Shown: in pieces, positions 6,247 to 28,778 of the stretch
Numbering within the stretch: position 1 is the first letter of the stretch
How the letters are laid out: each line of letters begins with the position of its first letter
Source of the DNA: Oscillospiraceae bacterium
GTDB taxonomy: Bacteria; Bacillota; Clostridia; Oscillospirales; Oscillospiraceae
Assembly: GCA_017448455.1 (NCBI GenBank)
Contig: JAFSLL010000102.1
Span: 1-40,361, forward strand
Direction: 5' to 3'
Length of the DNA stretch: 40,361 bases
Program-made: the position numbers and the translations under genes
The notes under the pieces: generated by a model
Told to the model about the DNA's origin: nothing
The model's input: the letters and a program-made list of their open reading frames with translations, nothing else
The model's database searches: none

Positions 6247-6785
6247 CTAATCGATATCCGGTTCGGACTTCGAGTTCCTGTCTTTATGAATCTGCACCAT
6301 GTCATAAAAGAGGCCGGGGTTCATGCGGTAGAATTCCATCCGCGACAGGTGCAGGAGCGTCACGGCGATGTAATTGTGCGTCGCTCTTATGCCCCGGCCG
6401 GCGCTTTTTTTTCGTGCAATTCGGCGAGGCCGAGATCCACTTCTTCGCTGCTGTCGACTTCGCGCCGATACCCGGCGACGATGGCATTGACAACAGATTT
6501 CTTCAGCGTCACATATTCCAGCGGGGTCATCCGCATAGAAATATCGTCGATAGTCAGCATCTTCCGGTGATCGCTCCCGGCTTCACGGCGGCAAAGCTCG
6601 CCGTCGTTGGCAAGCTCCACGGCAAACCAGCGGACATTCTGGACGCTCTCCAAAGTGTCGCCCTCAATGGCCGAGAGTGCCTGGTTGACGCCACCGAACT
6701 TCTCGTTCACCTTGAACATGATCTCGATGGAGTAATTCAGCGGTCTTTCTTCGCCGTTGATAACGGCGGTAATCATGTTGTCCAT
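6247..6785 (-). CDS. Tail assembly chaperone G-T fusion made by -1 frameshift
   Basis: Predicted 179-residue product. Translation starts at the ATG at 6785, reads zero frame to the slip site A AAA AAA (6411-6405), then shifts -1 and continues to a TAG at 6247-6249. The -1 part contains HNYIAVTLLHLSRMEFYRM and PGLFYDMVQIHKDR, the hallmark of the T half of siphophage tail chaperones. Nothing else in the genome order would supply that half. The end lies 14 bases before the tape measure start. In lambda the G-T protein binds the tape measure and recruits major tail protein, at a low ratio to G. An 8-bp palindrome CCGGCCGG sits just downstream of the slip site. The frameshift itself is inferred. 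Confidence 0.85.
6387..6785 (-). CDS. Tail assembly chaperone G
   Basis: 132 residues from the ATG at 6785, chosen because AAAGGAG lies five bases upstream; an in-frame ATG at 6809 has no such site. The sequence (NYSIEIMFKVNEKFGGVNQAL, then LSAIEG and a helical middle with EYVTLKKSVVNAIVAGYRRE) fits the tail chaperone family placed between major tail protein and tape measure. It ends in LHEKKAPAGA, whose two Lys codons are the slippery run used to make the longer G-T form. It is expected to be the abundant form, coating the tape measure before tube polymerisation. Confidence 0.85.
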   Translation of the reverse strand: MDNMITAVINGEERPLNYSIEIMFKVNEKFGGVNQALSAIEGDTLESVQNVRWFAVELANDGELCRREAGSDHRKMLTIDDISMRMTPLEYVTLKKSVVNAIVAGYRREVDSSEEVDLGLAELHEKKAPAGA

Positions 6786-6831
6786 GAGGCTCCTTTCTGC
6801 CTGTTGCAACGCCCATTACGGCGTAGAAGTG

Positions 6832-6883: not shown

Positions 6884-7693
6884 TCAGCTCTTGGTCACGA
6901 TGACGGTGTAGACCTTAGTGACAGCACCCGCCTCGACCGTGACGGTCAGCGTGTTCTCGCCAGCGGTCCAGGTTGCGGCATTGCCGTTGGTAACGGTAGT
7001 GCTGCCGTTCTTGATGGTGATGACGGCATTTGCGTCCTCAGCCGCCGCAGTCACCTTATCGGAGGCAGACGTGGTCGCAGCCGCATACTCGGTGATGTTG
7101 GAGCTGAAGGACGGGGTCAGCGGCAGGGTGCCGACAGTCAGTGCGGACAGATTGGCGCTCCCGGAGCCAGCCACGGAGCACTCGGAATCGATCCAGGCGA
7201 TAGCCGCCGCTTCGCTATCCAGCTCCTTGGTCTTCCGCCAGTTGCCGGCGCTATCGTCGAAGATGGTGAACGAGGTCTGTGCGGTCTGGAAATTGATGGA
7301 GTTGCCACGGGTCTGCGCGTTGTCGTTGCCGACAGAGGCCTTGGCCCTGGGGTAGACATAGGCGCGATACTTCTTCACGCCGTTGATCATCAGGACCTTG
7401 TAGTAGCCAAGAATGCCCTCCGGGGGAGTGTCATTCTTGTTGTAGGTCACGACGCCATTGGCGACGGTAGCGCCGTAGATGGTGGACGCGATGGTATCGG
7501 CCAGGTTGTCCGTCTCCATGGCAATACTGCCGGAGGAGAACTCGGAGAGCTGCTCCGCAAGGCTGTCGTCGGCATACAGTTCGCCGGAGGCAAGGTTGAC
7601 GGTCAGGTTGGCCGCAACCAGCTTGCCCAGAACGACGCCGGCCGCCGCAGAAGCAGGCTTGAAACAGGGGTGTTTAGCACCAAATTCAGCCAT
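6884..7693 (-). CDS. Major tail protein with C-terminal Ig/cadherin-like domain
   Basis: 269 residues, ATG preceded by GAAAGGATG. The N-terminal 165 residues (opening MAEFGAKHPCFKP; ELYADDSLAEQLSEFSSGSI; GVVTYNKNDTPPEGILGYYK; KKYRAYVYPRAKAS) have the layout of siphophage major tail proteins of the phi13 type, which polymerise into the tail tube. Residues about 178-269 form a cadherin-like beta-sandwich domain (ANLSALTVGTLPLTPSF, TWTAGENTLTVTV, ending KVYTVIVTKS), translated in frame. Such domains decorate the outside of tails and are thought to bind weakly to surface glycans. A close relative of this domain is encoded behind the capsid gene in the -1 frame. It precedes the chaperone and tape measure genes as usual. 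Confidence 0.9.
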   Translation of the reverse strand: MAEFGAKHPCFKPASAAAGVVLGKLVAANLTVNLASGELYADDSLAEQLSEFSSGSIAMETDNLADTIASTIYGATVANGVVTYNKNDTPPEGILGYYKVLMINGVKKYRAYVYPRAKASVGNDNAQTRGNSINFQTAQTSFTIFDDSAGNWRKTKELDSEAAAIAWIDSECSVAGSGSANLSALTVGTLPLTPSFSSNITEYAAATTSASDKVTAAAEDANAVITIKNGSTTVTNGNAATWTAGENTLTVTVEAGAVTKVYTVIVTKS

Positions 7694-7712: not shown

Positions 7713-8147
7713 TTAAAGATTTAGAGAGTCGAGCCACTCGTTATAGACCGATTCTTCGGCCTGTGCTGTGGCATCTGCGCTTTGTTCATTGGAATTGAGC
7801 ATCCACGCGGTTGCCGCGTTGCCGTGGCCGCCGAATTCATGCACGAATCCGACCTCCGCATTGGTGGCAACTCCACCGCTTTTTTTCGCATGGTAGGTGT
7901 GATGCGTCCCTTCCGGGTAGATCAAGGCATACCAGCTTTTCCCTTTCCGCTTCATAAACACTTTCGGGCTACCCATAAGGCGACCTGTGCGAGCGGTAAA
8001 GGTAGAGCGGATGGCTTTCTCGTGGGCCTCCTTGATGACTTCCGCCCCGCTCGAAACAATGTCCTTAATGACACGATCCGGCAGCTTCGCCATTTCTTCC
8101 ATGCTCAGCACGAAGCCGTCGATGTCGTTACATGTAAAGGTCGCCAT
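7713..8147 (-). CDS. HK97 gp10-like head-tail / tail completion protein
   Basis: 144 residues from the ATG at 8147 (MATFTCNDIDGF), chosen because GGAG lies nine bases upstream; an in-frame ATG at 8180 lacks this. Typical features of the gp10 family are a helical N-terminal half (LPDRVIKDIVSSGAEVIKEAHEKAI), a TARTGRLMGS motif, a basic MKRKGKSWYALIYPEGTHH, and the GFVHEFGGHG motif near the end. In HK97 and relatives these proteins cap or join the tail to the head. It overlaps the end of the upstream gene by 20 bases, so the two are probably coupled in translation. Confidence 0.85.
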   Translation of the reverse strand: MATFTCNDIDGFVLSMEEMAKLPDRVIKDIVSSGAEVIKEAHEKAIRSTFTARTGRLMGSPKVFMKRKGKSWYALIYPEGTHHTYHAKKSGGVATNAEVGFVHEFGGHGNAATAWMLNSNEQSADATAQAEESVYNEWLDSLNL

Positions 8148-8622
8148 CGAAATCAACTCCATCCACGAATTGGAATTCAAAGATCTTGTGTCGGCGCACT
8201 TCGTCGGTGTCGTCCGTCATTTCGGGCCATGTGAAACCCGCCCCATGGACGGCCGCTTTGGTCTTCCGAATGAGGCGGGTCAGATTGGTAGAAAGCGGAG
8301 CGTAAAGGTGCACTTGGATCAGGTAAAGCTCCCCGGTCGGCTCATCGTCTGCATACCCCACTCCGATCGTGGAGTAATTGAAGGTGAAGTAGGTCGCAGG
8401 CTCTTCGCTTTGGTCTGCTTTTTCATTCCCTGGTTTGGAAGAGTTCCAGACCGGGAAACCGAGGCCGGATAGAGCGGTTTTGATCAGTGAGTCTACCGAG
8501 AAACTGTTTAAGATTGTCGGCTGTGGGAAGGTGAACGTCCCCACGATGGAAGAAGATGCATTTGCGAGCGGGTCGATCTCAACGCCGAAAGCGGTCTTGT
8601 CGAATTTGTCCTTGTTGAGCAT
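8128..8622 (-). CDS. Putative tail terminator / neck protein
   Basis: 164 residues from the ATG at 8622 (MLNKDKFDKTAFGVEIDPLA), which has AAGGGGG upstream; a longer in-frame start at 8676 lies inside the previous gene. I do not recognise a specific family with certainty. The position between head-tail adaptor and gp10/major tail genes is where siphophages keep the tail terminator or tail completion protein, and the size fits. Visible features are SFSVDSLIKTALSGLGFPVW, a strand GELYLIQVHLYAPLS, a helix NLTRLIRKTKAAVHGAGF and an acidic end. This pattern of one helix crossing a small beta-sheet resembles tail terminators, but that is an inference. Confidence 0.6.
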   Translation of the reverse strand: MLNKDKFDKTAFGVEIDPLANASSSIVGTFTFPQPTILNSFSVDSLIKTALSGLGFPVWNSSKPGNEKADQSEEPATYFTFNYSTIGVGYADDEPTGELYLIQVHLYAPLSTNLTRLIRKTKAAVHGAGFTWPEMTDDTDEVRRHKIFEFQFVDGVDFDGDLYM

Positions 8623-8633
8623 TTCAGGCCCCC

Positions 8634-9005
8634 TTATCTGGCGCCGGCCCGTCTTTGCACCTTGATCTCCAGCCACACGCCGCGTTCTTCTACGTTGTCG
8701 ATGCTGATCACTTCATACGGGAGCGGGTCATCGCCCTTGTAGATGATCAGTTTCGGGTCGAGAAGTTTTCGGGAAAAGCGGGTGGTGATCGTCGCAGGCT
8801 CGCGGATCTCCAACTGCATAGACTGGAAAACCTCGGTGCCATGAGCATTGACCCATTTGCACATGCAGGGGACGTCTTTGCCGTTAGCTTTGCCGAAAAC
8901 ATTGACCTCGGCCTCCTGCGGGTATCCTTCGCCGTCCAGCCCCCGGTTGATGCGCTTGAAATATACCGGCGTGCGGAGCTCTCCGGGATTGGCGGATTTG
9001 CTCAT
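8634..9005 (-). CDS. Head-tail adaptor / head closure protein (SPP1 gp16-like)
   Basis: 123 residues, ATG at 9005 overlapping the stop of the upstream gene (ATGA). It begins SANPGELRTPVYFKRINRG and contains MQLEIREPATITTRFSRKLLDP and LPYEVISIDNVEERGVWLEIKVQR. This is the normal layout of the phage head-tail joining family: a small beta-barrel that plugs the connector after packaging. The order connector, adaptor, gp10-like, major tail protein is the standard one. No anomalies are seen. Confidence 0.88.
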   Translation of the reverse strand: MSKSANPGELRTPVYFKRINRGLDGEGYPQEAEVNVFGKANGKDVPCMCKWVNAHGTEVFQSMQLEIREPATITTRFSRKLLDPKLIIYKGDDPLPYEVISIDNVEERGVWLEIKVQRRAGAR

Positions 9006-9345: not shown

Positions 9346-10838
9346 TCATTCGGATTTGGTGACTGTTACGGTGTAGGTCTTTTCGAGCGTCGGCCCGGTG
9401 CCATCCGTGACCTTGATGGTCAGAACATTCTCACCGGCGCTCCAACTCGCGTTGCTGCCGTTGGTGACTTCGGTGGTTCCGTTCTTGATCTCAATGGTGG
9501 CGGTATCATCCGCAGCCGTTGCCGTGACCTTGTTGGAGGCATTGGTGGTCGTGGCTGTGTACGCCGTCACGTCAGGATCGAAGGACGGCGTAAGGGTGAG
9601 CGAACCAATCGTCAGCCCCGAAAGGTTCGCATTTAAGGGTTTACGATCGCCAGGCGGAACGCGCTCTTGAGACGGATCTGCTGATCGCCCCAGGCGGTGA
9701 GCACCCAGTAGTACTCGCCCTTCTTCGCGTCCTTGTCGGTCTCGAAGATGGTGCCGATATCGTAGTTGATACCGTAGAAGCTGAAATCGCCGACCACGGG
9801 AATGGTGGCCTTGTCGCAGAACACCACGGGGTAGCCGAGAATGGACTGCGGCTTGGAGCCGAACAGCGCCTCGCTGTCGTTCGCCAGGGACTTGACCATG
9901 GCGAAGTAGTCGGACTTCTTCATGACGACAGAAGCGTTCACGGCGAAGTCGTCGGCCAGGTCGCCAAGCGCCGCAACGATCGCTTCATACATGGTCGCGC
10001 CTTCCTTTGCCGTGATGGCGTAGGTGAGGACGCTCTCCGAAGTGTAGGAGGTGTAGTCGTAGAAGCTCATGTGGCGGTGCACGGAATCGGGGGTGCCGCT
10101 GTTGTAGATGGCGGTGGCGCTCTTGAAGGCAAAGAACTTCTCGCGCTTCGCCAGAGCGGAGCGGAGGGCGCCCTCGACCGCATTGACGACATCCAGATCG
10201 GTGCCGTGCAGAACGGTGTCCTTGATGGTCGCGCTGACCTTCGCTTTCATCCGGCCATAGACAACGGTATCGCCCTCCATGGCGATCTCATTGGCGGTCT
10301 GCTGGTCGGTGACGTCAGCCAGATCAGCGTCCTCGATGGTGAAGCCGAGCTTGGGCTCTTCCAGACCGGTGATGTTGGTGATCCTGGCAATGTTGCGCAG
10401 GGGGTTGATCTCAAAGGGCTCGATCAGGAGCTCGCGGGCCAGGTTGGTGGGCAGGAGCTTATCGCCATTGCCGAGGTCAGCGGTCGCGGCGGGGATAGCG
10501 CCGAGGCCTTCATAGGACTTGCCGGACACGGTGCCCATGATGGCATCGCGGTAGAAATCGGCCTTGGCCTTGATCTTGGCCTCTTTCTCGGTCATGCCGG
10601 TACCGGCACCGCCGCCGCTCTGCATAGCGAGAACGGCCTTCTGACGCTTCTCTTCCACGTCGTGGGACTTCTGCAGAATATCGATGCGCTTGGTCAGCTC
10701 GTCCATCTTCTTCTGCTTGGCCTCAATCTCCTCGATCGGGGTGTTGGGGTCGGCGGCCTTCTCGTTGATGTAGTCGGCGATGCCTTTCCGCTCATTCTCC
10801 AGAGCGAAGATCTTTTCTTTCATTTCGAACAGGGTCAT
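9346..10838 (-). CDS. Major capsid protein with Ig/cadherin-like extension (predicted -1 frameshift product)
   Basis: Predicted 497-residue minor form. The 401-residue capsid frame ends GTA AAC CCT TAA. Slipping back one base on A AAC CCT (9642-9636) makes the ribosome read TTA AAT GCG and on for 96 codons to a TGA at 9346. The added part contains ANLSGLTIGSLTLTPSF, EIKNGTTEVTNGS, SWSAGENVLTIKV and TYTVTVTKSE. It closely matches the domain fused to the major tail protein. The frame has no start codon with a ribosome site, and its coding begins exactly at the slip site. Ig-like capsid decorations made by frameshift are known in other tailed phages. That the shift occurs here is inferred from sequence. 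Confidence 0.82.
9600..9642 (-). promoter_or_regulatory. Programmed -1 frameshift signal at the end of the capsid gene
   Basis: The heptamer AAACCCT (9642-9636) is an X XXY YYZ site in the correct phase, and its last codon directly precedes the TAA stop. After a 5-base spacer, arm GCGAACC (9630-9624) pairs perfectly with GGTTCGC (9606-9600) around a 17-base loop. The loop bases GACG could also pair with CGTC further downstream, making a pseudoknot possible. Slip site, spacer and stem follow the textbook arrangement. Confidence 0.8.
9633..10838 (-). CDS. Major capsid protein (HK97 fold)
   Basis: 401 residues, ATG overlapping the stop of the prohead protease gene (ATGA) and preceded by GAAAGGAAG. 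The first 100 residues are charged coiled coil (FALENERKGIADYINEKA, then KQKKMDELTKRIDILQ), matching the HK97 scaffold-like delta domain removed by the protease upstream. The shell domain follows, with KLLPTNLARELLIEPFEINP, ITGLEEPKLGFTI, ANEIAMEGDTVVYGRMK, the KVSATIKDTVLHGT segment, FFAFKSATAIYNSGTPDSVH in the E-loop to P-domain region and VVMKKSDYFAMVKSLAN. The Asn-Pro at the very end is encoded by the slip heptamer. Expected to be the dominant form of the shell protein. Confidence 0.93.
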   Translation of the reverse strand: MTLFEMKEKIFALENERKGIADYINEKAADPNTPIEEIEAKQKKMDELTKRIDILQKSHDVEEKRQKAVLAMQSGGGAGTGMTEKEAKIKAKADFYRDAIMGTVSGKSYEGLGAIPAATADLGNGDKLLPTNLARELLIEPFEINPLRNIARITNITGLEEPKLGFTIEDADLADVTDQQTANEIAMEGDTVVYGRMKAKVSATIKDTVLHGTDLDVVNAVEGALRSALAKREKFFAFKSATAIYNSGTPDSVHRHMSFYDYTSYTSESVLTYAITAKEGATMYEAIVAALGDLADDFAVNASVVMKKSDYFAMVKSLANDSEALFGSKPQSILGYPVVFCDKATIPVVGDFSFYGINYDIGTIFETDKDAKKGEYYWVLTAWGDQQIRLKSAFRLAIVNP

Positions 10839-11892: not shown

Positions 11893-12036
11893 CTATTCTG
11901 CTTTTCCCGATGCGGACTTTTTTGCCCTCTCGATATCCTTCCTCAATGCGCTTTCGCGCCGATCAAGGGGCAGAAGGTAATACATAGAGGCGTTGATGCC
12001 GAGGGCTTCCGCCTCTTTTACAAGATCTTCATTCAT
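11893..12036 (-). CDS. Small phage protein, 47 residues, unknown function
   Basis: The ATG at 12036 overlaps the last codons of the portal gene in another frame (sequence ATGAATGA), with GGAGG upstream inside portal. The product is MNEDLVKEAEALGINAS followed by MYYLLPLDRRESALRKD and a Lys-rich end. The pattern of a charged helix, a YYLLPL turn and basic tail is that of a compact helical DNA- or protein-binding peptide, but no family is recognised. The coupled start makes real translation likely. Confidence 0.55.
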   Translation of the reverse strand: MNEDLVKEAEALGINASMYYLLPLDRRESALRKDIERAKKSASGKAE

Positions 12037-13309
12037 CCGGAGGCTCCTCTTCTTTGGGCGGCAGGGCTACCGGCTCCCGCTTCCCGTTTGCCATGACTTT
12101 CGGCTTCTCGTTCACGGTATAGTCAAGCGTTGCGAGATCCTGGGAGATCATGGCATGCTTGCCTATGCCGCCCGGCAGGGCGGGCATGTTCCTCGATGCC
12201 CGGATCTCATCCGGCGTTTTCCATGCGGAGCGCACGGCCTTGTAATCGACCTCGGCCTGTGTCGCGGCGTCGGCCCGGAGGATGCTCTCCATGTTGAACT
12301 TGAAGTGATAGCCGCGCTTCCGCTGTTCAGCCGTCAGCAGTTTGCGGTCAAGCTCCTGCTCATAGGCCGTCACGATTGGGAGCATGGTCAGCATGAGGAA
12401 TTCAAGCATCTGCTGCTCCTGGGAAGTGAACGACGTATCGGAATAGTCGCCCAGTAGGTGCGGCGGGAGGTTATAGACCATAGCCACCTTCGAGCGGGTG
12501 ATCTTCTCAACCTCAAAGAGTTTGCTGTCAACCGGCGACAGGTTCATGACTTTGGCGGTGACGCCGGACTCCAACAGGAGGATGTTCCCGGAGGTCTCCC
12601 GGTAGGTCTCCATGAAGTCCTCGATCATCTGCTTCTTCTGCTCCGCACCGAGGTTTGCCGGCGCTTCGAGAACAATCGCAGAATTGACACCCTGTTCCAG
12701 TTGCTTTGCAGAGAATTCCTGGATGTTTTCGGAGTATCGAAGGGTATCAAAAAGAACGGAAACGGGGCTTATGCCGCCGATCCCGTTCGTGGAGATAAAG
12801 GGAACGTGGACCATGTAATAGTCATGCACGAGGAACTCCGGCCCTTCGTCTGGCGTGATCCTCCACCAGAGCTCCTTTGACTCCTTTTCGATGATCGGGC
12901 GCACCTTCGTCGGGTCCAGGACGTCAAGACGAAATGTGCTCTCTCCGGGAAAGAAAACCTTTAAGGCATAGCAATCTCCGGCCGTTCCTCTGCAGGCTTC
13001 CAGAGTTTTGAAGAATGTGCAGCTTGTCATATAGGGATTCGGGGCGAAAGAAACCATGTCGTTGAGGTCATTTCGCACCGGCGAAGCCCCTCTATACAAC
13101 TGCACAGGCATTGCAGAGAACGCGTTGGAGATCCGGGAGACCGCCGCAAAGATCAACTCGCTGTTTCGGAGCGTATAGTCGCCGCGGAGCCAGTGAGGGA
13201 TCCATGTCGGCCCGACGCGGAGGCGGCTCGGCGTTCTGTCGGGCGACACCAGGACTTTGGCAATGATCTGTTTTCTCCGGCGCTCCCGAAGTCTTGAAAT
13301 AATGCTCAT
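12029..13309 (-). CDS. Portal protein (HK97 family)
   Basis: 426 residues, ATG four bases after the terminase stop, with GAGGTG serving as ribosome site. Family landmarks are the basic N-terminus, SELIFAAVSRISNAFSAMP, VQLYRGASPV, a CRGTAGDCYALKVF segment, HVPFISTNGIGGISPVSVL, a core KITRSKVAMVYNLPPHLLGD and FTSQEQQMLEFLMLTMLPIV. These define the HK97-type portal, the dodecameric ring through which DNA enters and leaves the head and on which the terminase docks. The length is typical. A proline- and acid-rich tail closes the protein. Confidence 0.93.
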   Translation of the reverse strand: MSIISRLRERRRKQIIAKVLVSPDRTPSRLRVGPTWIPHWLRGDYTLRNSELIFAAVSRISNAFSAMPVQLYRGASPVRNDLNDMVSFAPNPYMTSCTFFKTLEACRGTAGDCYALKVFFPGESTFRLDVLDPTKVRPIIEKESKELWWRITPDEGPEFLVHDYYMVHVPFISTNGIGGISPVSVLFDTLRYSENIQEFSAKQLEQGVNSAIVLEAPANLGAEQKKQMIEDFMETYRETSGNILLLESGVTAKVMNLSPVDSKLFEVEKITRSKVAMVYNLPPHLLGDYSDTSFTSQEQQMLEFLMLTMLPIVTAYEQELDRKLLTAEQRKRGYHFKFNMESILRADAATQAEVDYKAVRSAWKTPDEIRASRNMPALPGGIGKHAMISQDLATLDYTVNEKPKVMANGKREPVALPPKEEEPPDE

Positions 13310-13313
13310 GCTT

Positions 13314-15029
13314 TCACCTCGCTAAGCTGATTTTGGTCGTCAGCCTCTTGTCTTTGGGGATATACAAGGGATTTCGCCTCATAAACTCCGTATGGGCGTT
13401 CAAATGGGCCGCAAAACCGTCGATTTTGCGGTATTTCGATTGCTTCGTCGGGAGGTATGTGGCGTTGACGCTGCGCTTTGTCAGTTTCACATTCCCCAGA
13501 TACCAGTTGTACATGGGGTTGTTGTTGTGGATGATATTGCCGTCGAGGAACCGCTCTTTCAGATTGTCCAGGGGGGCGGTCAGCGTGATCTCGCCCTGCC
13601 GGACGTCGTTCATGACAAAGCCCTTCTCGATCATGGCCTGGATCATCATGAACGCCTTTGCCGGGTCATATCCCACGGTTTCGATGCGGTATAGCTCCCT
13701 CTGCTTCAAAAACCACTCGACAACATAGTTGTAATCCACATATTCCCCCGGACAAACGGTGAGCCAGTTGCCTTGAATGAGCATATCCCAGTCGAGCTTT
13801 TCATGGTCCACCTTCATCTTCTTTTCGGTTGTCCATGTGTGCTCCAGAACAAAGAAATCATTTTCGGGAAGAGGAAACTCCAAACAGGCCGATGTGAAGT
13901 CCTCCGTCTCCGAAAGGTCAAAGCCGCCGTAGCAGCGAGCGCCCCGCAGACGCTCCAAATCATAGGTGCGATTGTTCTTCCGGATGGTTTTGATATCCAA
14001 AAAGGACAACTCATCCACGGAAGTCCACACATTCAGGCTTTTATTGATGAAGTTCCCGCGCTCTGCGGGGATGGATTTTACCCGCTCCCATTCGTCTTTC
14101 AGATCCTCAATGTCGAGCAGTTTGCCGAGGGACGGGTTTGCTTTCGGCCAGCAGGCGGGATCAGACGGGTCATCATCTTCGTCGATTTCGTCGATGTAGA
14201 CGAACATGCGGTCTGCGGCTCTCTGGGAAATGGCCTTGTCACCCGCGAGGATTTGCCCGCCGAGGATGTAAAAATCCATCAACGGGCCGTCGATAACCGT
14301 TCCGAGGGTGGTGATATAGATGATCATGGGCTGTTTCCGCTTCTTGATCTTGCCCTTGATCACGTTGATCAGCTTGTAGTCCCGGAACTCCTGTATTTCA
14401 TCGAACACGCCCATGTGAACATTCCGCCCGTCAAGGTTGCGGCTGTCCGACGCCAGCGGCTCGAATTTGCTGTTTTTGTAATAGGCCCCGCTCTGCGTCA
14501 CCTGGACATGCTTCGAGAGAACGGGAGAGCCGGAGATCTGCGCTCCGCACTCTGTAAATACAATCCTCGCCTGCTCTTTTGAGTTGGAAAGCGCGTAGAT
14601 CTCCGCGCCGCGCTCGTTGTCCTTGGTCAATCCATAGGCGGCGTTGCCGGCGATCATCGTGGATTTCCCGTTGCCTTGGCCTACGATAATCAGCGATTCC
14701 CGGAAGCGACGGTAGCCGGTTTTTCGGGACACCCAGCCGTACATGTTCGCTTCAACGAAATGCTGCCACGGGAGCAGTTCCGTCCGGGAGTAGGCGCCCT
14801 TGGTAGGCACGAGGAACTTTTCAATGAAATCAATCGGGCGATAACCCTTCGCAACGTCAAATACCCATGGATATTGCGGGTCCGTATAGGACTTGACCAG
14901 ATCATCAAGGAATCGCTGGCAGGCTTGAATCCGCTTTTTTCCCGAGACGATCCGGCCCTCGGTCACGTCGATGGCGTACTGATATGCCTTGGACGATTTT
15001 ACGAGGCTGGGAATGACATCGAGGCTCAT
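13314..15029 (-). CDS. terL: Terminase large subunit
   Basis: 571 residues, ATG preceded by AAAGGAGG. The ATPase half shows Walker A GQGNGKST at 117-124 and Walker B HMGVFDE at about 205-211 with its catalytic Glu, preceded by the LLPWQHFVEANMYGW adenine-side motif. The nuclease half begins with GGFDLSETEDFTSA (about 360-375; the first acidic metal ligands), then LDWDMLIQGNWL and VGYDPAKAF, typical of the RNase H-like domain. The enzyme packages DNA into the prohead and cuts the concatemer. Neighbours small terminase, HNH nuclease and portal confirm the call. Length is as expected for the family; nothing is broken. Confidence 0.95.
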   Translation of the reverse strand: MSLDVIPSLVKSSKAYQYAIDVTEGRIVSGKKRIQACQRFLDDLVKSYTDPQYPWVFDVAKGYRPIDFIEKFLVPTKGAYSRTELLPWQHFVEANMYGWVSRKTGYRRFRESLIIVGQGNGKSTMIAGNAAYGLTKDNERGAEIYALSNSKEQARIVFTECGAQISGSPVLSKHVQVTQSGAYYKNSKFEPLASDSRNLDGRNVHMGVFDEIQEFRDYKLINVIKGKIKKRKQPMIIYITTLGTVIDGPLMDFYILGGQILAGDKAISQRAADRMFVYIDEIDEDDDPSDPACWPKANPSLGKLLDIEDLKDEWERVKSIPAERGNFINKSLNVWTSVDELSFLDIKTIRKNNRTYDLERLRGARCYGGFDLSETEDFTSACLEFPLPENDFFVLEHTWTTEKKMKVDHEKLDWDMLIQGNWLTVCPGEYVDYNYVVEWFLKQRELYRIETVGYDPAKAFMMIQAMIEKGFVMNDVRQGEITLTAPLDNLKERFLDGNIIHNNNPMYNWYLGNVKLTKRSVNATYLPTKQSKYRKIDGFAAHLNAHTEFMRRNPLYIPKDKRLTTKISLAR

Positions 15030-16406: not shown

Positions 16407-16931
16407 TCATACGTTTTTGTAGATGGCCGCCCGGCTGTATCCGGTGACGCCATCCGTCATCATGGCAAGAAATTCGTCACGGGAGAAGTCCGAGAGCCGG
16501 AAGATCTCCTCGGGCTTCATGCCCAGTTGTTTGGATATCTCCGGCACGGTCTTGCCCTCATCTATCAGGCGCTTCACGATCGCTTTCATCGGCTCCAGCA
16601 GGTGTGTGCCGCGGGCGCGGTTGTGCGTGATCGTGCCATAGATATCGTCGGCCTCGCTGTCGTGGTTCACGATCACCACAGGCACCTTGCCGCCGAGTTT
16701 GGAAAGAAGCGGCTCCCGCCCGGCCACGGTCCAGCGGTGGAAGCCGTCGATGATGGTGTAATCAGGACGCACCACGATAGGCAGCGTCCAGCCGTTAGTG
16801 AGGATGCTCTGAATGAGTAACTGCAGATTGTCCTCGCTGACCTTGTTCGGGTTATAGTCGTTTGCCCGGAGCTTGTCCCGGTCCACCCACCGCAGCGTGG
16901 AGAGCGGCCCGAACACATCGACCTCAGTCAT
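16407..16931 (-). CDS. ParB/Srx-fold protein (IbrB-like), first copy
   Basis: 174 residues. The start ATG overlaps the end of the PP-loop gene upstream by eight bases. The N-terminal 90 residues are a ParB/sulfiredoxin-like domain: LRANDYNPNKVSEDNLQLLI, NGWTLPIVVR, and the motif IIDGFHRWTVAG (Asp62 to Arg66) in place of the usual G-E-R-R box. Two helical segments follow, including KTVPEISKQLGMKPEEIF, which looks like a helix-turn-helix. Paired genes of this kind with PAPS-reductase-like partners are known as IbrB/IbrA in Escherichia coli and occur in phages. The biochemical role is not established; ParB-type domains can bind nucleotides or act as nucleases. Confidence 0.8.
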   Translation of the reverse strand: MTEVDVFGPLSTLRWVDRDKLRANDYNPNKVSEDNLQLLIQSILTNGWTLPIVVRPDYTIIDGFHRWTVAGREPLLSKLGGKVPVVIVNHDSEADDIYGTITHNRARGTHLLEPMKAIVKRLIDEGKTVPEISKQLGMKPEEIFRLSDFSRDEFLAMMTDGVTGYSRAAIYKNV

Positions 16932-18090
16932 GTTTCTTCACCCCCTTTTGCGGTGAAGTCTCACGGCTGAAATCCGCGTAGCCCTTATAGACCGTCGTGT
17001 ACAAGGCCCGCAGGGAGCGGAGCTTCGGATCTCCGGCGATAATGGCGTCGTGCATCACCCGAAAATGGTCGTTGGTCATCACGGCGCTGTTTCTGATGTA
17101 AAAGGCCCGGTATGCTTTGTGCACCTTCTCCATGCCTGGGATCCCGAAATACTTTCCGGATTCGGTGAAGATCATGCGCTTGCATTCGGCCTTGTAGTCC
17201 TTCGTCGGCTCGCTGCCCTCCAGCTCCCGGCGCTTTCTGGTGCTGCGCTTGAACATTTCACTGTCCCAGTAGAGCAGCGTCAGATAGGCGTTCGGCTCCC
17301 GCTTCTCGATCTGCGCCCAGAGCGCCGGATCAGTCTCGGCAATATACCGCAGGCCGGCGATCCCCTCGGAGCCGAAGAAGTTGCAGAGCCGAAGGTGCCG
17401 TTTTGTCACGCCTACCTCGTAGAGATGGATATACGCCTCCGGGAAGTCCAGATTGTGCTCCTTGATGTAGAGCCAAATATCGCTGTCCCGCCAGTCGTAT
17501 ATGGGATACTGGCAATTTGAGCTCGTGATGCCGCCTTTTCCCAGGCCTACCCGCGTCAGGAGCTTGGCCCTCTGCACGGACTCGGAGCCGCGCAGGCCGA
17601 CCATCTGAATGCCGTCCCTCGTGATGGCCTTGCAGAACTCTTGATAGTTCATCTGGCCGGGATAGGAGAGATACGGGTTTCTCGTGATTGCGAAGGGCGG
17701 CGGCTGGCGCACCCACGCGCTTTCTTTCCCCGGCTCCCAGGTGATCCATTCCTCGGTGTTCTGCAGATAGTGCAGGATGCTCGACTGACGGACCGGCAGG
17801 CAATACCATTGGAAAGCGGCTCCTACGGCGAGGAACCGCTTTCGCCAGCGAATCGCCATCTGAAACATGCTCTCATAGATGGCCTCTTCGTCGATGAAGA
17901 TCACCACGAGCTGCTTTGCGTCAATCCGGCCCTCCATGATCAGCTGATAGGTCACATGGGCCAGACACAGGCTGTCTTTGCCCGCCGAAAAGCTCAGATA
18001 TACCGGGACGCCGTTGGAGAACACATTGAGGACGCGCTGCCGGGCGGCGGTGACGACGTCCATCGTCCCCTCGATACGCTTCACAGCCAT
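16924..18090 (-). CDS. PP-loop ATPase, PAPS-reductase-like (IbrA-like), first copy
   Basis: 388 residues; the ATG overlaps the upstream ParB-like gene by ten bases. A PP-loop motif SAGKDS sits at 35-40 (YLSFSAGKDSLCLAHV), followed by VVIFIDEEAIYESMFQM, then GLRGSESVQRAKLL (substrate/AMP handling region) and SNCQYPIYDWRDSDIWLYI, as in PAPS reductase and sulfate adenylyltransferase-type enzymes. The C-terminal 150 residues match the extra domain of IbrA-like proteins. The ECGxH active-site Cys motif of true CysH is absent, so sulfate reduction is unlikely. The family activates substrates by AMP transfer, as in DndC-like DNA sulfur modification. The actual substrate is unknown. Confidence 0.82.
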   Translation of the reverse strand: MAVKRIEGTMDVVTAARQRVLNVFSNGVPVYLSFSAGKDSLCLAHVTYQLIMEGRIDAKQLVVIFIDEEAIYESMFQMAIRWRKRFLAVGAAFQWYCLPVRQSSILHYLQNTEEWITWEPGKESAWVRQPPPFAITRNPYLSYPGQMNYQEFCKAITRDGIQMVGLRGSESVQRAKLLTRVGLGKGGITSSNCQYPIYDWRDSDIWLYIKEHNLDFPEAYIHLYEVGVTKRHLRLCNFFGSEGIAGLRYIAETDPALWAQIEKREPNAYLTLLYWDSEMFKRSTRKRRELEGSEPTKDYKAECKRMIFTESGKYFGIPGMEKVHKAYRAFYIRNSAVMTNDHFRVMHDAIIAGDPKLRSLRALYTTVYKGYADFSRETSPQKGVKKHD

Positions 18091-18767
18091 ATCTTTTCAC
18101 CGCACTTCGGGCAGACCAGGAAGCGTCTTTGCAACGCAATTCCAGCCGTTCCCTCGGCTTTTTCGTCCAGACCTGCTCCTATATCGGGGGGAGGCGAGGA
18201 GCCGTTTCCCTCGCGTTCCAGAGGCCCGCCCGGCGTTGCCGGTGTCAATTCCTCCGCAGAGGCGACAAAAGCGGCCTCTTCTTCCTGGTACCGGGCCGCC
18301 GCGCGCTTCATATCGTCCTTGGTCTCCGTATCGAGGAGCCCGTAGTCGCCCATGAAGTCATCCGCGCTGACGGCGTCGAAGGTCAGCGTTTCGAGAAGAT
18401 CCGCGTCATAGCCGGGAATATCGAAGTCTTTGACCTCGCCGAGCTGGGCAATGATGCCCTCGATCATTTCAAGGTTATCCACGCCCAGGGAATAGATTTT
18501 GTTGTCGGCCATCATCATTTTGAGCTTGTCGCTCTCCGACATGCCCGCTTTGATGAAGCAGGCCGCCTCGGTCATGCCGAGGGCTTTCATGGCCTCATAC
18601 AGACCGTTGCCGATCAGTATGGTCTTGTTTTCGTCGCAGACGATGGCCTTGGTCTGCCCGAACTTCTCGACAGACCGCTTATATTCTGAAATCTGCTTGG
18701 CAGAGTGGAGCCGGACGTTTTTCGGGTTCGGCGTCAACTCCGCAAGCGGGATCATCGTGACATTCAT
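18081..18767 (-). CDS. ParB-like protein with C-terminal CxxC, second copy
   Basis: 228 residues, ATG overlapping the upstream gene stop (ATGA). The N-terminal domain has MIPLAELTPNPKNVRLHSA, YKRSVEKFGQTKAIVC, and IGNGLYEAMKALGM at the position of the ParB box, then SDKLKMMMADNKIYSLGVDN, as in ParB-like domains found in phages and fused to DNA methylases. The middle is acidic and Ala-rich, then a Pro/Gly-rich linker, and the protein ends in LVCPKCGEKIWL, half a zinc ribbon (Cys219, Cys222). It is related to, but longer and different from, the first ParB-like protein. Likely partner of one PP-loop protein. Confidence 0.78.
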   Translation of the reverse strand: MNVTMIPLAELTPNPKNVRLHSAKQISEYKRSVEKFGQTKAIVCDENKTILIGNGLYEAMKALGMTEAACFIKAGMSESDKLKMMMADNKIYSLGVDNLEMIEGIIAQLGEVKDFDIPGYDADLLETLTFDAVSADDFMGDYGLLDTETKDDMKRAAARYQEEEAAFVASAEELTPATPGGPLEREGNGSSPPPDIGAGLDEKAEGTAGIALQRRFLVCPKCGEKIWL

Positions 18768-19549
18768 GCGCCCACCCCCATAAGGAAGGATCGGGCGCTG
18801 GGAAGCCGCTCCGCAGCTTTGAGGATGATCGTCGGGTCAATCTCATAGACCTCGCGGTAGCCCTTCATGATATCCTGACTGCAGAACTCCCGCTCCGGCC
18901 ATGCGTGGGTGCCCTGCACCCAGCCGTCTTTCCAGCCGTAGATCGGCGGGAGCGGCAGTCCGTTGTAGCGGATATATCCGAGCAGCGCCTCATGGGGCCA
19001 CGCCCGGAGGGGCGAAAAGCGGACCTCGCCGGTCTTTTTCCGGATATAACCGTCCGGGCCGCAGTTGTTCCCGTCAATTGTCCGGTGCCCCATAAGGAGC
19101 AAATCAAGGTGGTTGTCGAAGAACATCTTTGTGAACGGCCCTCTCTGGCTGATCTGATGCCAACGCTGCCCGACAACGCCCTCTGCGAAAATCAGGTTTT
19201 GATGGTGATACAGCCAGTCCAGGCCGTAGCCGGTGTGCATCATCATGACGCCCTCCGGCTTGTTCTTTTTTACCCACTCCACGAATGCGGGATAGTCCAG
19301 GTCGCAATAAGCGAAATACCCGGTGCGGATCCCTGCCCGCTCGCACAGGCTGGCAAGGACAATACTGTCCTTACCTGCACTGTACGCATAGGCGGCGCGT
19401 TTCCCGGCCGTGGCCGTCCGGATCTCCGCGAGGGCGGTGTCCGTGAAGCTCTTGACCTCCTCCGGGGAGATCAGCTCCTCGATGTGCTCCCACGCCCTCT
19501 GCCAGTCCTCATTCCGGCTGGTCTGCTTCCGTCCGAGCACCTGTTTCAT
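18764..19549 (-). CDS. PP-loop ATPase, PAPS-reductase-like, second copy
   Basis: 261 residues from the ATG at 19549, which overlaps the stop of the membrane protein gene (ATGA). The same frame is open much further upstream, but that part only mirrors the membrane gene. The PP-loop SAGKDS is at 57-62 (AYSAGKDSIVLASLCERAG), followed by YFAYCDLDYPAFVEWV, LLMGHRTIDGNNCGPDGY and KTGEVRFSPLRAWPHEALLGYI, the usual C-terminal PAPS-reductase-family pattern. It is shorter than the first copy and lacks the IbrA extension and the CysH ECGxH motif. It begins the four-gene PP-loop/ParB string. Substrate unknown. Confidence 0.82.
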   Translation of the reverse strand: MKQVLGRKQTSRNEDWQRAWEHIEELISPEEVKSFTDTALAEIRTATAGKRAAYAYSAGKDSIVLASLCERAGIRTGYFAYCDLDYPAFVEWVKKNKPEGVMMMHTGYGLDWLYHHQNLIFAEGVVGQRWHQISQRGPFTKMFFDNHLDLLLMGHRTIDGNNCGPDGYIRKKTGEVRFSPLRAWPHEALLGYIRYNGLPLPPIYGWKDGWVQGTHAWPEREFCSQDIMKGYREVYEIDPTIILKAAERLPSARSFLMGVGA

Positions 19550-20544
19550 GTCGACACCGCCTTTCGCTTCTCTCGAGCGTTCCAGACGATGGCGAACAGG
19601 ACGCCCCCGGCCACAAAGTAGATCCGCACCGAGGCCATGAGCGTCCACATGCCCATGACTCCCAGCGGGATCAGTACGCTCCAAAAAGCAATCAGCCCTG
19701 CGTTCACCGCAAGGCCGACTTTTTTCCCGAAGGCGATATAGATGCTGTACATGGAGGAGGACAGGGTAGATGTTCCGATAATGGTGATCAGCACGGCCTT
19801 GACGATGTTCAGCGCCGGCGTGAACTTGGTCCATGCCAGCGGGAAGACGATCGCCATATAGATGCCGAAGAAGATGCCGCCCATGGTAAAGGCCCTCTTC
19901 ACGTTGACCTTTGCCGTGCCGTCCTCGTTTTGGTCGTTGTAGGCCAGAATCTCGAAGAAGTAGGGATAGGTGAATGGGCCGGGCAGCAACAGGATCGCTT
20001 TCCAGATGCCGGTTTTCATCGGCTCCGCTTCGAGGCCGAGCGTGATCTGATTGACGGCACCGCCCGTGTGGAGCAGGGCCGCGACTGTGACAGCTGCGGC
20101 CATCAGATAGACGATGATCCAGCCGAAGCCGTCTGTCAGCACGTTCCGGATCATGCCGAAGCGAAGCAGGATGATAAGGAAAACGACGGCCAGCGCATAG
20201 GCCACATATTTGCCGAAGTCCGGCCCGAGCGCCGTGTCTGCGAAAACCGTCTGCATCCCGTTCATGGAAAGCCATGCCTGAAAGACGCACATGATGGCGC
20301 AGATGTATTCCATCACACGGGAGCGGAACACTTCACGCACCTTCGGGATTTTGCAGGCGACAGCGCCGAACAGGATGCAGGCCAGGACGTTGCCGATCAC
20401 CCAGATCAGCGAGGGAATAGCCCCGTAGGTCTGCGTCATGGTGACGCCGTTCATCAGAGAGCCGATGCCCGCCCATGTGGCGGCGATGCTCAATGCGTAG
20501 TAGGTCTGCGGATTGCGGATAAACCTTTCTTTCAGTGTCTTCAT
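19546..20544 (-). CDS. Phage-encoded ten-helix membrane protein, possible transporter
   Basis: 332 residues from the ATG at 20544, with AAAGGAGGG nine bases upstream. I count about ten hydrophobic segments (17-33, 43-65, 78-100, 111-130, 140-158, 181-200, 219-237, 247-270, 276-297, 303-322) and short basic loops. Segment 1 (TWAGIGSLMNG) and segment 6 (LLLPGPFTYPYFFEIL) are broken by Gly/Pro, as in transporters with unwound helices such as the LeuT/APC fold, but no family is recognised with certainty. It is too large for a holin and is first in the operon with the PP-loop/ParB genes, overlapping the next by ATGA. It may import a substrate for them or act on the host envelope; both are guesses. 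Confidence 0.75.
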   Translation of the reverse strand: MKTLKERFIRNPQTYYALSIAATWAGIGSLMNGVTMTQTYGAIPSLIWVIGNVLACILFGAVACKIPKVREVFRSRVMEYICAIMCVFQAWLSMNGMQTVFADTALGPDFGKYVAYALAVVFLIILLRFGMIRNVLTDGFGWIIVYLMAAAVTVAALLHTGGAVNQITLGLEAEPMKTGIWKAILLLPGPFTYPYFFEILAYNDQNEDGTAKVNVKRAFTMGGIFFGIYMAIVFPLAWTKFTPALNIVKAVLITIIGTSTLSSSMYSIYIAFGKKVGLAVNAGLIAFWSVLIPLGVMGMWTLMASVRIYFVAGGVLFAIVWNAREKRKAVST

Positions 20545-24533: not shown

Positions 24534-26855
24534 ATGAAATCATCTCGACCTGGTTTCCTGTTCCGGTATCTTATTATCCTGATGCTTGTTTTCGCGTTGT
24601 TTCCATTATTTCCAACAGCATTGGCGGAAGAAGCAGATGGTTGGCACTTTGAGGAAGACATTTTATATTATTATGAAGATGGCATTATGCTCACTTCCTG
24701 TATCAGACAGATCGATGGCCTGTGGTTTTGCTTTCAGGCCGATGGTGCTATGCTTGACCATGACTGCGAAGCAGAAATTCTTGACGAAAATGGAGCTGTC
24801 TTTTTTGTTCGTGCCATGGAGGGCGGAGAGCTGTACTGTGATGACTGTTATACGGTACCGGACAGTTATCCCAGAATACGCTATTATTATGACTCCCGCG
24901 GTCATGCACTTCAAGGGCCTGTTTTCATGGAAGAGGAGTATTATCTCTTTTCCGAGCATGGACAGCTGCTGATTAATGTCGACAGATTTGAATGGAACGA
25001 AGAGATCTGGCATACTGACGAGTATGGCAGACTGCTGGAGGGTGCAGGCACAGATTTCGATCATGAAGGCGACGACGATGACGGCAACGAAAACGGCAGC
25101 GGCGCTGGCGAGGCGGGAGAGAATCCTGGCGAAAACAACCAGGGAGAAGGCCAGGGTGGATCAGGTGGATCTGGAGAATCTGGCGGAAACGGAAATGATT
25201 CCGGAACGGGGCAGGGAAACGCAGGTGGAAATGAAAACGGGAACCAGCAGCAGAATCCGGAACCAAAGAATGGCTGGGCTTTGGAGGAAGACGGCACCAG
25301 GTATTATGTGAATGATGAAGCAATATCTTCATCTATCATCAAAATCGGAGAGTTATATTACTGCTTTGATGAAAACGGCCTTCTCCTTATGAATGTATCA
25401 ACCGGCATCTATGACCAGAACGGTGTACTTCGAAGCATTCGTGCAAAATCAGATGGAAGTCTGTACTGTGAAGAATCCTATCAGGATCCAAATGCCGGTT
25501 CGCTTTATTGTTATGGAGCTGACTGTCTTTCTTATTATGGGTTTTATACCCTTTCGGACGGGTTACGGTATTTCTTTTCCAATGGAAAAATGGCCGCCGG
25601 TGTGAGCTTTCAGCACGGCAGCGATTATTACTACGCGGATGAATACGGTAATATTCAGGATGGACGCTTCTATGATGACGAGGGCAATGTGCTCTGTAGT
25701 ATCTGCGTAGTCAGCGGCGATATGCTATTCGGTTGCTATGAATCCGGTGATGCGCAGCGGATTGTTGGCAACGGTCTGTTTCGCAATGTTTATCATTATC
25801 GTGCGGTTTATCTTCGAGACAGCGTCCTTGTAAGAAATGAATTTGTCGAGATCGGCGATTCACTCTATTATTTCGGAAACAGCGGAGATTTACAGACTGG
25901 TCTGTTCTATATTGACGGAACCAGACACCTGTCGGCTGCAGACGGTCAGTATATAGGTGTTGCAGATTCAGAAGGCTGGAATACGATTGATGGAGAACGT
26001 TATTATGTTCGAAATGGAACCCTGATCACAGAGGGAGAACATACCGTAGACTGGAAAAGCTGCTACTTCACTGAAAATGGAATGCTTCTTCATGACTGCC
26101 TATATGGAGACATTCAATTAGACGGAGATGGACACCGGATTGAGGAAGGCTGGGTTGGCAGATCAGAGGGCAAATATTATGTTGACGCAGAAACTCATAC
26201 CATAGTGCGCGATCGGGAAGTCAGCATTGAGAATCAGAGTTTCTACTTCGATGCAGACGGCCTCATGGCAACCGGAATCATTACGGTCAACGGAGAACAA
26301 AGAAATTACGGTACAGACGGGGCTCGTATTCCGCTGCCAAAAAGTCCTGAAGAAAAGACGCCTCCTCCTTCAGAAGAAGATCCGGATCAGAATTATATCC
26401 CGCAAAATGAGCCTATGGCTAAACAGACAGATGAGGGGAATTATAGAAATGGCGGGAGCGGGCACGGCGGAGTAACAACGGCAACGGGGAACCGGCCAGT
26501 TTCCACGCCGGAAAACCAAAAGCCTGACTCGGTGAAAAATACCAGGAGGAAGCTCGAGCCAATACCGACACAGCCTGGGCTGTATGTCTTTCGCTATGGC
26601 GTTTGGATACATAAGAATACCGCCGGTTGGAAAAACCCGTTGATAAATATTTCAAATAACGGGAAATATGCATGGTTTCCAAATACCGGTGAGCAGCTCA
26701 GGCAAACCATGATTGTAACAACAGAAAGTATTCTATATTTTGATGAAACTGGCCTTCTGTCGAGCAATGGTGTACGTCGAGTTGGAGCGCATTACTGCCG
26801 GATTCGCTGTTCGGACGATTATTCCGGTCAGACGATCGCAATATTTCCACAATGA
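24534..26855 (+). CDS. Secreted protein with choline/glucan-binding-like repeats
   Basis: 773 residues, ATG preceded by AGAAAGGTGG. Residues 1-31 are a signal peptide (basic start, hydrophobic core LIILMLVFALFPLF, TALA cleavage site). The mature part consists of short Trp/Tyr/Gly repeats such as YYYEDGIML, WHTDEYGRLLEG, YYCFDENGLLLMN, YYYADEYGNIQDG and FYFDADGLMATG, like cell-wall/choline-binding repeats. A Gly/Asn/Glu-rich linker of about 70 residues (178-247) splits them. A Pro/Glu-rich linker precedes a C-terminal 115-residue repeat block. No catalytic domain or LPxTG anchor is visible, so it is probably held on the wall by the repeats. It ends 30 bases before mnmG. Confidence 0.75.
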   Translation: MKSSRPGFLFRYLIILMLVFALFPLFPTALAEEADGWHFEEDILYYYEDGIMLTSCIRQIDGLWFCFQADGAMLDHDCEAEILDENGAVFFVRAMEGGELYCDDCYTVPDSYPRIRYYYDSRGHALQGPVFMEEEYYLFSEHGQLLINVDRFEWNEEIWHTDEYGRLLEGAGTDFDHEGDDDDGNENGSGAGEAGENPGENNQGEGQGGSGGSGESGGNGNDSGTGQGNAGGNENGNQQQNPEPKNGWALEEDGTRYYVNDEAISSSIIKIGELYYCFDENGLLLMNVSTGIYDQNGVLRSIRAKSDGSLYCEESYQDPNAGSLYCYGADCLSYYGFYTLSDGLRYFFSNGKMAAGVSFQHGSDYYYADEYGNIQDGRFYDDEGNVLCSICVVSGDMLFGCYESGDAQRIVGNGLFRNVYHYRAVYLRDSVLVRNEFVEIGDSLYYFGNSGDLQTGLFYIDGTRHLSAADGQYIGVADSEGWNTIDGERYYVRNGTLITEGEHTVDWKSCYFTENGMLLHDCLYGDIQLDGDGHRIEEGWVGRSEGKYYVDAETHTIVRDREVSIENQSFYFDADGLMATGIITVNGEQRNYGTDGARIPLPKSPEEKTPPPSEEDPDQNYIPQNEPMAKQTDEGNYRNGGSGHGGVTTATGNRPVSTPENQKPDSVKNTRRKLEPIPTQPGLYVFRYGVWIHKNTAGWKNPLINISNNGKYAWFPNTGEQLRQTMIVTTESILYFDETGLLSSNGVRRVGAHYCRIRCSDDYSGQTIAIFPQ

Positions 26856-26885: not shown

Positions 26886-28778
26886 ATGAATAAAACTTTT
26901 CATGCCGGTGACTGCGATGTTGCCGTGATCGGCGCCGGTCATGCCGGGATTGAGGCTGCTTTGGCAGCAGCTCGGCTCGGAATGAATACAATCTGCTTTA
27001 CAGTAAACCTTGACAGTGTAGGGAACATGCCATGCAATCCTGCCATCGGAGGGACAGGGAAAGGACATCTTGTCCGAGAACTTGACGCACTCGGAGGGGA
27101 GATGGGAAAAGCGGCGGATAAGGCCTGTATCCAGTATCGGATGCTGAACAAGGGTAAAGGACCGGCCGTACACTCACTTCGTGCGCAGGCGGACCGGCGC
27201 AGATATCAGGAAGTGATGAAGCAAACGCTCGAAAAACAGGAGAATCTTCATGTCCGTCAGGCCGAAATTGTCAGAGTGAATGTAAAGAACGGGAAAGTTA
27301 ATTCCATCAGCAGCGCTACGGGCGGTGAGTATCTCTGCAAGGCTGTCATTATTGCAACAGGAACCTATTTAGACAGCAGAACGATCATTGGTGAATTGAT
27401 TACCCCTTCAGGTCCGGATGGCTTGGCGGCCGCTGTGCCTTTGGCAGGAAGCCTTCGTGAGCTTGGTATCTCGATTCGTCGATTCAAGACCGGAACACCT
27501 CCGCGGGTGCATGCACGTACCGTTGATTTCACAAAAATGGAAATTCAGCCGGGTGATGATCATCCGGAAGCATTTTCTTTCTCTACCTTAGAAACTCCCC
27601 AAAATCGTGCGGTTTGCTATCTGACATACACCAATGAAAAAACACATGCAATAATCCGCGACAATCTCAGTCGAAGTCCGATCTATGCAGGGGTAATTGA
27701 AGGAGTAGGACCCAGGTATTGCCCCAGTATAGAGACAAAAGTGATGACTTTCCCGGATAAAACGCGGCATCAGTTATTCATAGAGCCAATGGGAATGAAT
27801 ACTGAGGAACTCTATATTCAGGGCTTCTCTTCTTCCATGCCGGAAGAGATTCAGCAACAGATGCTTCACACAATTCCGGGCCTGGAACACGCGGAAATGA
27901 CCAGATGTGCCTACGCGATCGAATACGATTGTGTAGATCCGACGGAACTCCTTCCAACTCTGGAGTTCAAAAAGATTGAGGGCCTGTATGGCGCAGGACA
28001 GTTTAACGGATCCTCCGGATACGAGGAAGCTGCTGTTCAGGGATTTGTTGCCGGTGTCAATGCGGCAAGAAAAATCAGGCAGGAATCGCCTTTTGTTCTG
28101 CGTCGAAGTGATGGGTATATTGGAACCCTCATTGATGATCTCGTCACAAAAGGAACAAATGAACCATATCGCATGATGACATCCAGAAGCGAATATCGTC
28201 TGCTTCATCGTCAGGATAATGCGGATGAACGTTTGTGTGCTATCGGATACGCGCTCGGACTTGTCAGTAAAGAACGGCTTCAGGCGGTGGAAGAGAAATG
28301 TACTGCTGTAAGCAATGAACTGGCCAGGTTGGAGAACACGTATTTACCGCCTTCTGATGAGTTGTCACAATTGCTTCGGAGCAAGAACACAGCAGATGTA
28401 CAGAACGGATGCTCACTTGCTGATCTGATCCGCAGGCCGCAGCTTAGTTACTATGATCTTGTTGATTTTGATCAAATCCGTCCTTCCTTGCCGAAAAGTG
28501 TTGTTAGTCAGATTGATATCCGCCTGAAATATGACGGCTATATCCGCAGACAACTGAAGCAGGTCGAAGAGTTCAGCAAACTGGAAGAGAAGCGAATTCC
28601 GGAGGATCTGGACTATGACCGGGTTGTCGGCTTACGTCTCGAGGCAAAAGAAAAACTCAAAAAAATACGACCGCAAAACTTTGGGCAGGCCGGCAGAATA
28701 TCCGGTGTTTCTCCGGCAGATATAGCTGTTCTGATGATAGCGGTAGAAAGCAGAAAAGACAGCAAAAACCATGCTTGA
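26886..28778 (+). CDS. mnmG: tRNA uridine-5-carboxymethylaminomethyl modification enzyme MnmG
   Basis: 630 residues, normal length. Residues 16-21 form the FAD-binding GAGHAG loop ([20 protein letters not shown]), followed by the family signatures [20 protein letters not shown] and [32 protein letters not shown], and [20 protein letters not shown], with the C-terminal helical tRNA-binding domain ([36 protein letters not shown]). With MnmE it forms the cmnm5 group on the wobble uridine of several tRNAs, using FAD, NADH and a folate. Neither mnmE nor rsmG is visible here; instead the VWA gene overlaps its end by eight bases. Confidence 0.97.

Follow-up and report, generated by a model that had tools for sequence, protein, structure and literature searches.

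A predicted −1 frameshift signal at the end of a prophage capsid gene and the apparent exchange of its slippery site and appended domain among related phages

Introduction

Among the described systems closest to the locus studied here is that of Lactobacillus phage A2, in which a −1 shift at the 3' end of the gene for the head protein (gp5A/gp5B) adds an Ig-like domain (PMC5009743). The A2 tail gene also has a −1 frameshift, and in the A2 genome (NC_004112) both the head and the tail gene close with C_CCA_AAA GCG and a stop codon, and each has a Big_2 domain encoded in the −1 frame; the head and tail Big_2 domains are 38% identical. In gene 10 of phages T3 and T7 (10A/10B), a −1 shift likewise leads to a longer capsid form. 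The T3 extension has been called Ig-like (PMC5009743), and about 10% of the T7 capsid protein is reported to be extended (PMC3185693). For the Listeria phages PSA, A118 and A500, the capsid and the tail protein are both reported to have frameshifted forms (PMC5009743), the shift being +1 in the tail genes and also in the capsid gene of PSA. As we read them, the extensions of the PSA and A118 capsids do not look Ig-like, and the +1 frame behind the A118 tail gene overlaps a gene annotated as Ig-like. In SPP1, the recoding event lies at the final Pro codon ahead of the stop and adds an Ig-fold (FN3) domain (gp17.1/gp17.1*), and the two forms are reported to occur at 3:1.

Here we analyse the capsid gene of a prophage in a draft Oscillospiraceae genome, within a 40,361-nt stretch of DNA that we call the window. 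As in A2 and T3, an out-of-frame C-terminal domain, predicted to be Ig-like, lies behind a slippery site at the end of the capsid gene. In A2, however, the heptamer C_CCA_AAA is placed one codon before the stop and the domain is Big_2, whereas in the window A_AAC_CCT abuts the stop and the domain belongs to PF12733; the tail domain of the window is in frame instead of frameshifted, and the two capsids are just remotely related. T3 and T7 belong to a different phage group with a different site, and are likened to the window by description. The Listeria shifts named above are +1, unlike that proposed here, and in SPP1 the +1 shift occurs at CCCUAA in a tail tube protein rather than a capsid protein.

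Results

Prophage setting and capsid gene

The genome is a 3.5 Mb draft in 308 contigs (contamination 7.29), of which the window is contig 73. The left part of the window holds, on its minus strand, a siphovirus-like prophage with genes for the terminase (13317-15029), portal (12032-13309), capsid, connectors, tail tube and tape measure, and the right part holds host genes, including mnmG (26886-28775) and ABC transporter genes. A plus-strand gene for a choline-binding-repeat protein (24534-26852) is located between the prophage genes and mnmG, and two PAPS-reductase-like genes (16927-18090 and 18767-20290, minus strand) lie in the prophage region, upstream of the terminase. The distal tail protein Dit is matched in different parts by two minus-strand ORFs (1536-2075 and 567-1106) with another ORF between them, so that Dit may be split in the window. 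In the tail assembly chaperone gene (6387-6809, minus strand) there is an in-phase A_AAA_AAA at 6411-6405, and its −1 frame runs on towards the tape measure gene, which is an ordinary G/GT-type frameshift. Together with the capsid signal described below, this suggests that the prophage probably uses two −1 shifts.

The capsid gene (9633-10838, minus strand) encodes a 401-residue protein of the HK97-fold family, which matches PF05065 above the cut-off (E 1.8e-10, 41.2 bits; cut-off 24.2), PHROG 10 major head protein (E 2.3e-36) and, as a profile, the solved phage capsid chain 7rwz_B (E 3.2e-105). It ends in VNP, encoded by GTA AAC CCT TAA, where A_AAC_CCT (9642-9636) is followed directly by the TAA stop (9635-9633). 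The heptamer is in the correct phase within the overlap of the two frames, as expected for a −1 frameshift signal. The −1 frame (9349-9636, minus strand) opens with TTA AAT GCG AAC and continues for 96 codons up to a TGA at 9346-9348; it contains no ATG and no TTG, and its single GTG is codon 23, within the domain. The encoded extension matches the cadherin-like beta-sandwich family PF12733 above the cut-off (E 2.4e-11, 44.4 bits; cut-off 24.2), and its best match to a solved chain is a weak one, to an alpha-galactosidase (E 0.0043). Five bases after the heptamer (9635-9631) begins a perfect 7-bp stem, GCGAACC (9630-9624) and GGTTCGC (9606-9600), a likely frameshift stimulator. An initial annotation made from the window alone had described the in-phase heptamer abutting the stop, the spacing and stem, and the 96 additional residues without a start of their own, and was right in each of these points. 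Its term "Ig/cadherin-like" needs correction in that the domain is of PF12733 and not of the classical Ig set.

Homologous capsid loci

To ask whether this layout exceeds chance, we retrieved homologues from IMG/VR and a GTDB genome set using the capsid sequence alone, ignoring the domain. Ten re-fetched copies (L014-L022, L042) were excluded; a single procedure was applied to the remaining 54 loci, and the counts were repeated by script. In 41 of them the capsid gene is followed by a domain in the −1 frame, cut by contig ends in two cases (L003 and L033, with 22 and 39 residues of the domain). All 41 have one of two heptamers immediately before the stop, AAACCCT (33 loci) or GGGGGAA (8 loci), and neither heptamer precedes the stop in the 12 other readable loci. 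Behind AAACCCT, 31 loci carry a PF12733-type domain and two (L060 and L063) an unrelated one, whereas the eight GGGGGAA loci all carry a PF12733-type domain; these assignments were mostly made by alignment, with Pfam run on a few. GGGGGAA corresponds to the "fivetwo" motif of PRFect, a recurrent slippery motif of actinobacteriophages that re-pairs via G:U (PMC10885494). There it is reported mainly from tail assembly chaperone genes (PMC10885494), whereas here it adjoins the capsid stop.

The remaining 13 loci comprise three with an in-frame extension, eight with none, L039 and L046. The in-frame extensions (L034, L035 and L065) are about 100 residues of another domain type, without a slippery heptamer, and form one clade (99/99) on the capsid tree. 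L039 has a 64-codon −1 frame behind GAC CCT TGA, with its own ATG and a weak resemblance to Rho_N, and L046 is cut before the capsid stop. In L056, from the group without extension, a 94-codon −1 frame reads as a separate gene with a GAGGAGG-ATG start. The 41 loci are not independent and include near copies (L007/L008, L029/L052, L036/L047/L051/L055/L064, L037/L038/L043 and L053/L054).

As to cultured phages, in 50,697 phage records the extension domain has no match at E 1e-3, and the capsid matches 212 records, all below 60% identity. In 394 genomes of the same order, the full capsid is matched only in the genome of the window itself, with one other match that is weak and partial.

Selection on the heptamer and the −1 frame

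Codon usage was analysed in 27 less redundant AAACCCT loci, including the window. All 27 have an A-ending codon in front of AAC, whereas A-ending codons make up 456 of the 9,877 codons (4.6%) in these genes; the codon in front of AAC is GTA in 22 of the 27, although GTA accounts for just 31 of 589 Val codons. This constant A indicates that the full heptamer matters, and not C_CCU alone. CCT accounts for 42 of the 291 Pro codons in the capsid genes of AAACCCT loci, and the AAC codon says little, since most Asn codons are AAC (294 of 359). In 34 capsid genes, neither heptamer occurs in phase at any of the 12,305 other codon positions. In L001, seven extra residues precede the site, and the gene still ends in GTA AAC CCT.

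The −1 frame itself has dN/dS values well below 1 in all six pairs of relatives compared (0.089/0.64, 0.058/0.37, 0.063/0.324, 0.045/0.211, 0.096/0.572 and 0.146/0.626; one pair trimmed to equal length). These substitution patterns indicate that it is under purifying selection and is a real part of the gene.

RNA structure downstream of the slippery site

The hairpin of the window (9600-9630, minus strand) folds at -17 kcal/mol (z -3.8), and a helix equally good at equal spacing occurs in about 4% of shuffles (p 0.040); shuffle p-values of individual loci are modest. From the window sequence alone the signal exceeds chance just moderately; the relatives make it clear, all 41 out-of-frame domains lying behind one of two heptamers at the stop. 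In 24 aligned AAACCCT loci (22 distinct sequences) the covariation score is 0.212, against 0.102 +/- 0.019 in shuffles, none of 500 being as high, and the best slid register scores 0.100. Over the seven pairs 92.9% of the cells are paired, and 19 of the 24 rows keep all seven; L026 and L053 keep six, and L005, L030 and L006, which also have AAACCCT, four. Double changes convert GCGAACC/GGTTCGC into GCGCGCC/GGCGCGC, GCGAGCC/GGCTCGC or GCGCTCC/GGAGCGC; they are confined to two of the seven pairs, a pair count that is ordinary (131 of 500 shuffles).

A structure at 5-9 nt is present in the window, and it is missing in a few relatives. Where the downstream DNA cannot be aligned, long helices nonetheless start 4-6 nt past the heptamer in five loci: L063 (9 bp, p 0.005), L025 (10 bp, p 0.005), L027 (12 bp, p 0.015), L062 (9 bp, p 0.025) and L060 (8 bp, p 0.075). 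L037 has a helix of 6 bp (p 0.124), and none was found past the heptamer in three of the seven GGGGGAA loci (L011, L032 and L061). A comparable helix score is also reached by L041 and L045, two of the 11 loci that lack an out-of-frame domain.

A pseudoknot between GACG and CGTC, which the initial annotation had proposed to look for, is not borne out: 69% of the cells are paired, yet the covariation is 0.013, against 0.015 in shuffles, and the pairing is not conserved. A possible pairing of the loop GGGG with a downstream ACCC was noted by eye and not counted.

Downstream pseudoknots are not obligatory for −1 frameshift signals. Beyond the first hairpin there may be a second, at about +42 to +83, formed in the window by TACGCCGTC (9584-9592) and GACGGCGTA (9560-9568; minus strand, 9560-9592 overall). 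The relatives present two mutually exclusive, competing registers for it, both above most shuffles (0.218 vs 0.147, 1 of 500 as high; combined with the first hairpin, 0.151 vs 0.104), in which just 64% and 74% of the cells pair.

Exchange of slippery site and domain

The capsid tree was built from 46 family members and phage A2, which sits on a very long branch; 19 of its 44 inner forks are open. On this tree, GGGGGAA needs six gains or losses, five of them forced by supported branches, which is about as many as shuffled labels need (6.6), so that this heptamer is scattered across the family. L030 (AAACCCT TAA) and L032 (GGGGGAA TGA) have nearly identical capsids. Between L030 2697-3106 and L032 5551-5960, identity is 97 of 102 nucleotides ahead of the junction, 12 of 27 within it and 257 of 281 beyond, and the two loci differ strongly only over the approximately 27 nt that hold the slippery site. 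The domain also varies: that of L060 and L063 is unrelated to PF12733, has no match in Pfam and no convincing match in PHROG. The regions concerned are L060:1529-1927 and L063:5640-6374 and 7811-8800. The domain follows AAACCCT in both loci, in L063 in two copies, and the tail protein of L063 has a weakly similar third copy at its C-terminal end (E 8e-6).

From these comparisons, the slippery heptamer appears to have been exchanged repeatedly and the domain exchanged as well, while the −1 phase stayed constant, a pattern that suggests selection for the recoding as such. Slippery segment and domain could then be separately exchangeable parts, the frameshift being a dosage device for any domain plugged in; we consider this proposal about evenly balanced. 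It competes with the published suggestion that Ig-like domains of this kind are mobile and landed out of frame by chance (PMC5009743), frameshifting having rescued them later and the sub-stoichiometric product never having been selected. The three loci with an in-frame extension of another domain type fit such a history. All 41 out-of-frame domains, however, share the −1 phase across two heptamers and two domain families, the GGGGGAA label changes six times on the capsid tree, and an in-frame PF12733 head fusion is absent from the 54 loci; we consider chance landing the less likely explanation.

Slippage and its alternatives

We put the probability that programmed −1 ribosomal frameshifting yields a minor, domain-bearing capsid subunit in the window at roughly 90%, judging from comparative sequence evidence. 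At A_AAC_CCU, the Asn and Pro tRNAs would jointly slip back by one base (AAC to AAA, CCU to CCC), while the hairpin five bases downstream, and perhaps also the adjoining stop codon, would delay the ribosome. Most ribosomes would terminate and give the 401-residue capsid protein, and a minority would enter the −1 frame to give a 497-residue form with the junction ...IVNPLNANLSG... and the PF12733 domain at its end. In E. coli, 61 of 64 heptamers are reported to shift with the strong IS3 pseudoknot (PMC4066793). In the account given there, A_AAC_CCU is neither among the three failing heptamers that are named nor among the strongest (PMC4066793); the word "canonical", which the initial annotation used of the signal, holds for the form of the heptamer and not for its strength in E. 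coli.

The same study lists C_CCU as one of six tetramers that are shift-prone in E. coli with a stimulator (PMC4066793), and +1 "shifty stops" (CCC-UGA, CCC-UAA) are known from phage tail genes. It is therefore conceivable that only the peptidyl-tRNA(Pro) slips at C_CCU, with the stop waiting in the A site and the AAA and hairpin of secondary importance. The invariant A before AAC disfavours slippage by the Pro tRNA alone, and the alternative heptamer GGGGGAA contains no Pro codon, so we consider this improbable for the window.

Much less credible is termination followed by a restart in the −1 frame, with the domain made as a free decoration protein. It is possible in seven of the eight GGGGGAA loci, because an ATG overlaps the stop (GAATGA, stop TGA), and seven of the 33 AAACCCT loci have a TTG at the stop because their stop is TGA. 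In the window and in 26 of the 33 AAACCCT loci, however, the domain frame opens with TTA, and in the GGGGGAA locus with a TAA stop (L025) it opens with ATA and no ATG overlaps. Re-initiation in the window would have to do without a start codon, since the −1 frame has no usable one, and it does not explain the conservation of the slippery heptamers. The initial annotation had held that homologues with the domain in frame or under its own start would speak against frameshifting; in-frame extensions exist in just 3 of the 54 loci, with another type of domain, and the overlapping ATG of seven GGGGGAA loci leaves the window untouched, because its −1 frame begins with TTA. Finally, damage might be suspected in a draft contig with host genes on its right side, either as an indel introduced by sequencing or assembly or as decay of a prophage gene that no longer yields its domain; this is practically negligible given the recurrence of the out-of-frame layout in 41 loci from many assemblies and the purifying selection in the −1 frame.

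Head and tail domains

The major tail (tube) protein of the window (6884-7693, minus strand; PHROG 88, E 2.4e-21) ends in a domain that is homologous to the capsid extension and is read in frame. This tail domain falls just under the PF12733 cut-off (E 1.9e-4, 22.2 bits; cut-off 24.2) and is identical to the capsid domain at 55 of 93 positions (59%), which bears out the homology claimed at the outset. Counting the window, tail proteins could be located in 35 of 55 loci, three of them cut by contig ends, and an in-frame PF12733-type tail domain was found in four: the window, L031, L061 and L062, the last three above the cut-off. In a tree with 29 head domains, these four group together in a clade of their own (98/96), so that a recent origin of each tail domain from the head domain of its own phage, or the reverse, was rejected; against its tail domain, the phage's own head domain ranks 3rd, 19th, 21st and 25th of the 29 heads in the four cases. 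The same kind of domain can be placed on the tail too, PF12733 in four phages and the unnamed domain in L063.

The initial claim that no described phage bears such a domain on capsid and tail alike proved wrong, as A2 has Big_2 on both head and tail, and frameshifted head and tail forms are reported for A2 and the Listeria phages in the review cited above (PMC5009743).

Discussion

The signal at the end of this capsid gene is well supported, by comparison with its relatives, as a programmed −1 frameshift of the known A2/T3 type, with another heptamer and another domain family. The central claim of the initial annotation, that such a signal appends a domain to the capsid, is upheld by the same architecture in 41 of 54 loci, a covarying hairpin and purifying selection. 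What is new is that the relatives have exchanged heptamer and domain repeatedly without a change of phase, a pattern for which we found no published description in the open-access literature searched.

If the 401- and 497-residue forms co-assemble, the domain would be present on the capsid at limited density, whereas on the tail tube, where it is in frame, it would be present on every subunit. By analogy with A2, T3/T7 and SPP1, a fraction of the capsid subunits would bear the domain, giving a sub-stoichiometric and presumably surface-exposed display. Its function may be adhesion, probably to carbohydrate, as suggested by reviews and by the weak alpha-galactosidase match.

An exchangeable site and domain with a persistent −1 phase open the chance-landing suggestion to a test, since selection for dosage would predict similar frameshift levels across both heptamers and domains. 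An ordinary annotation that ends at the capsid stop would, in a group of gut phages, overlook the portion of the capsid that is presumably displayed; the capsid frameshift would offer a natural site for sub-stoichiometric display.
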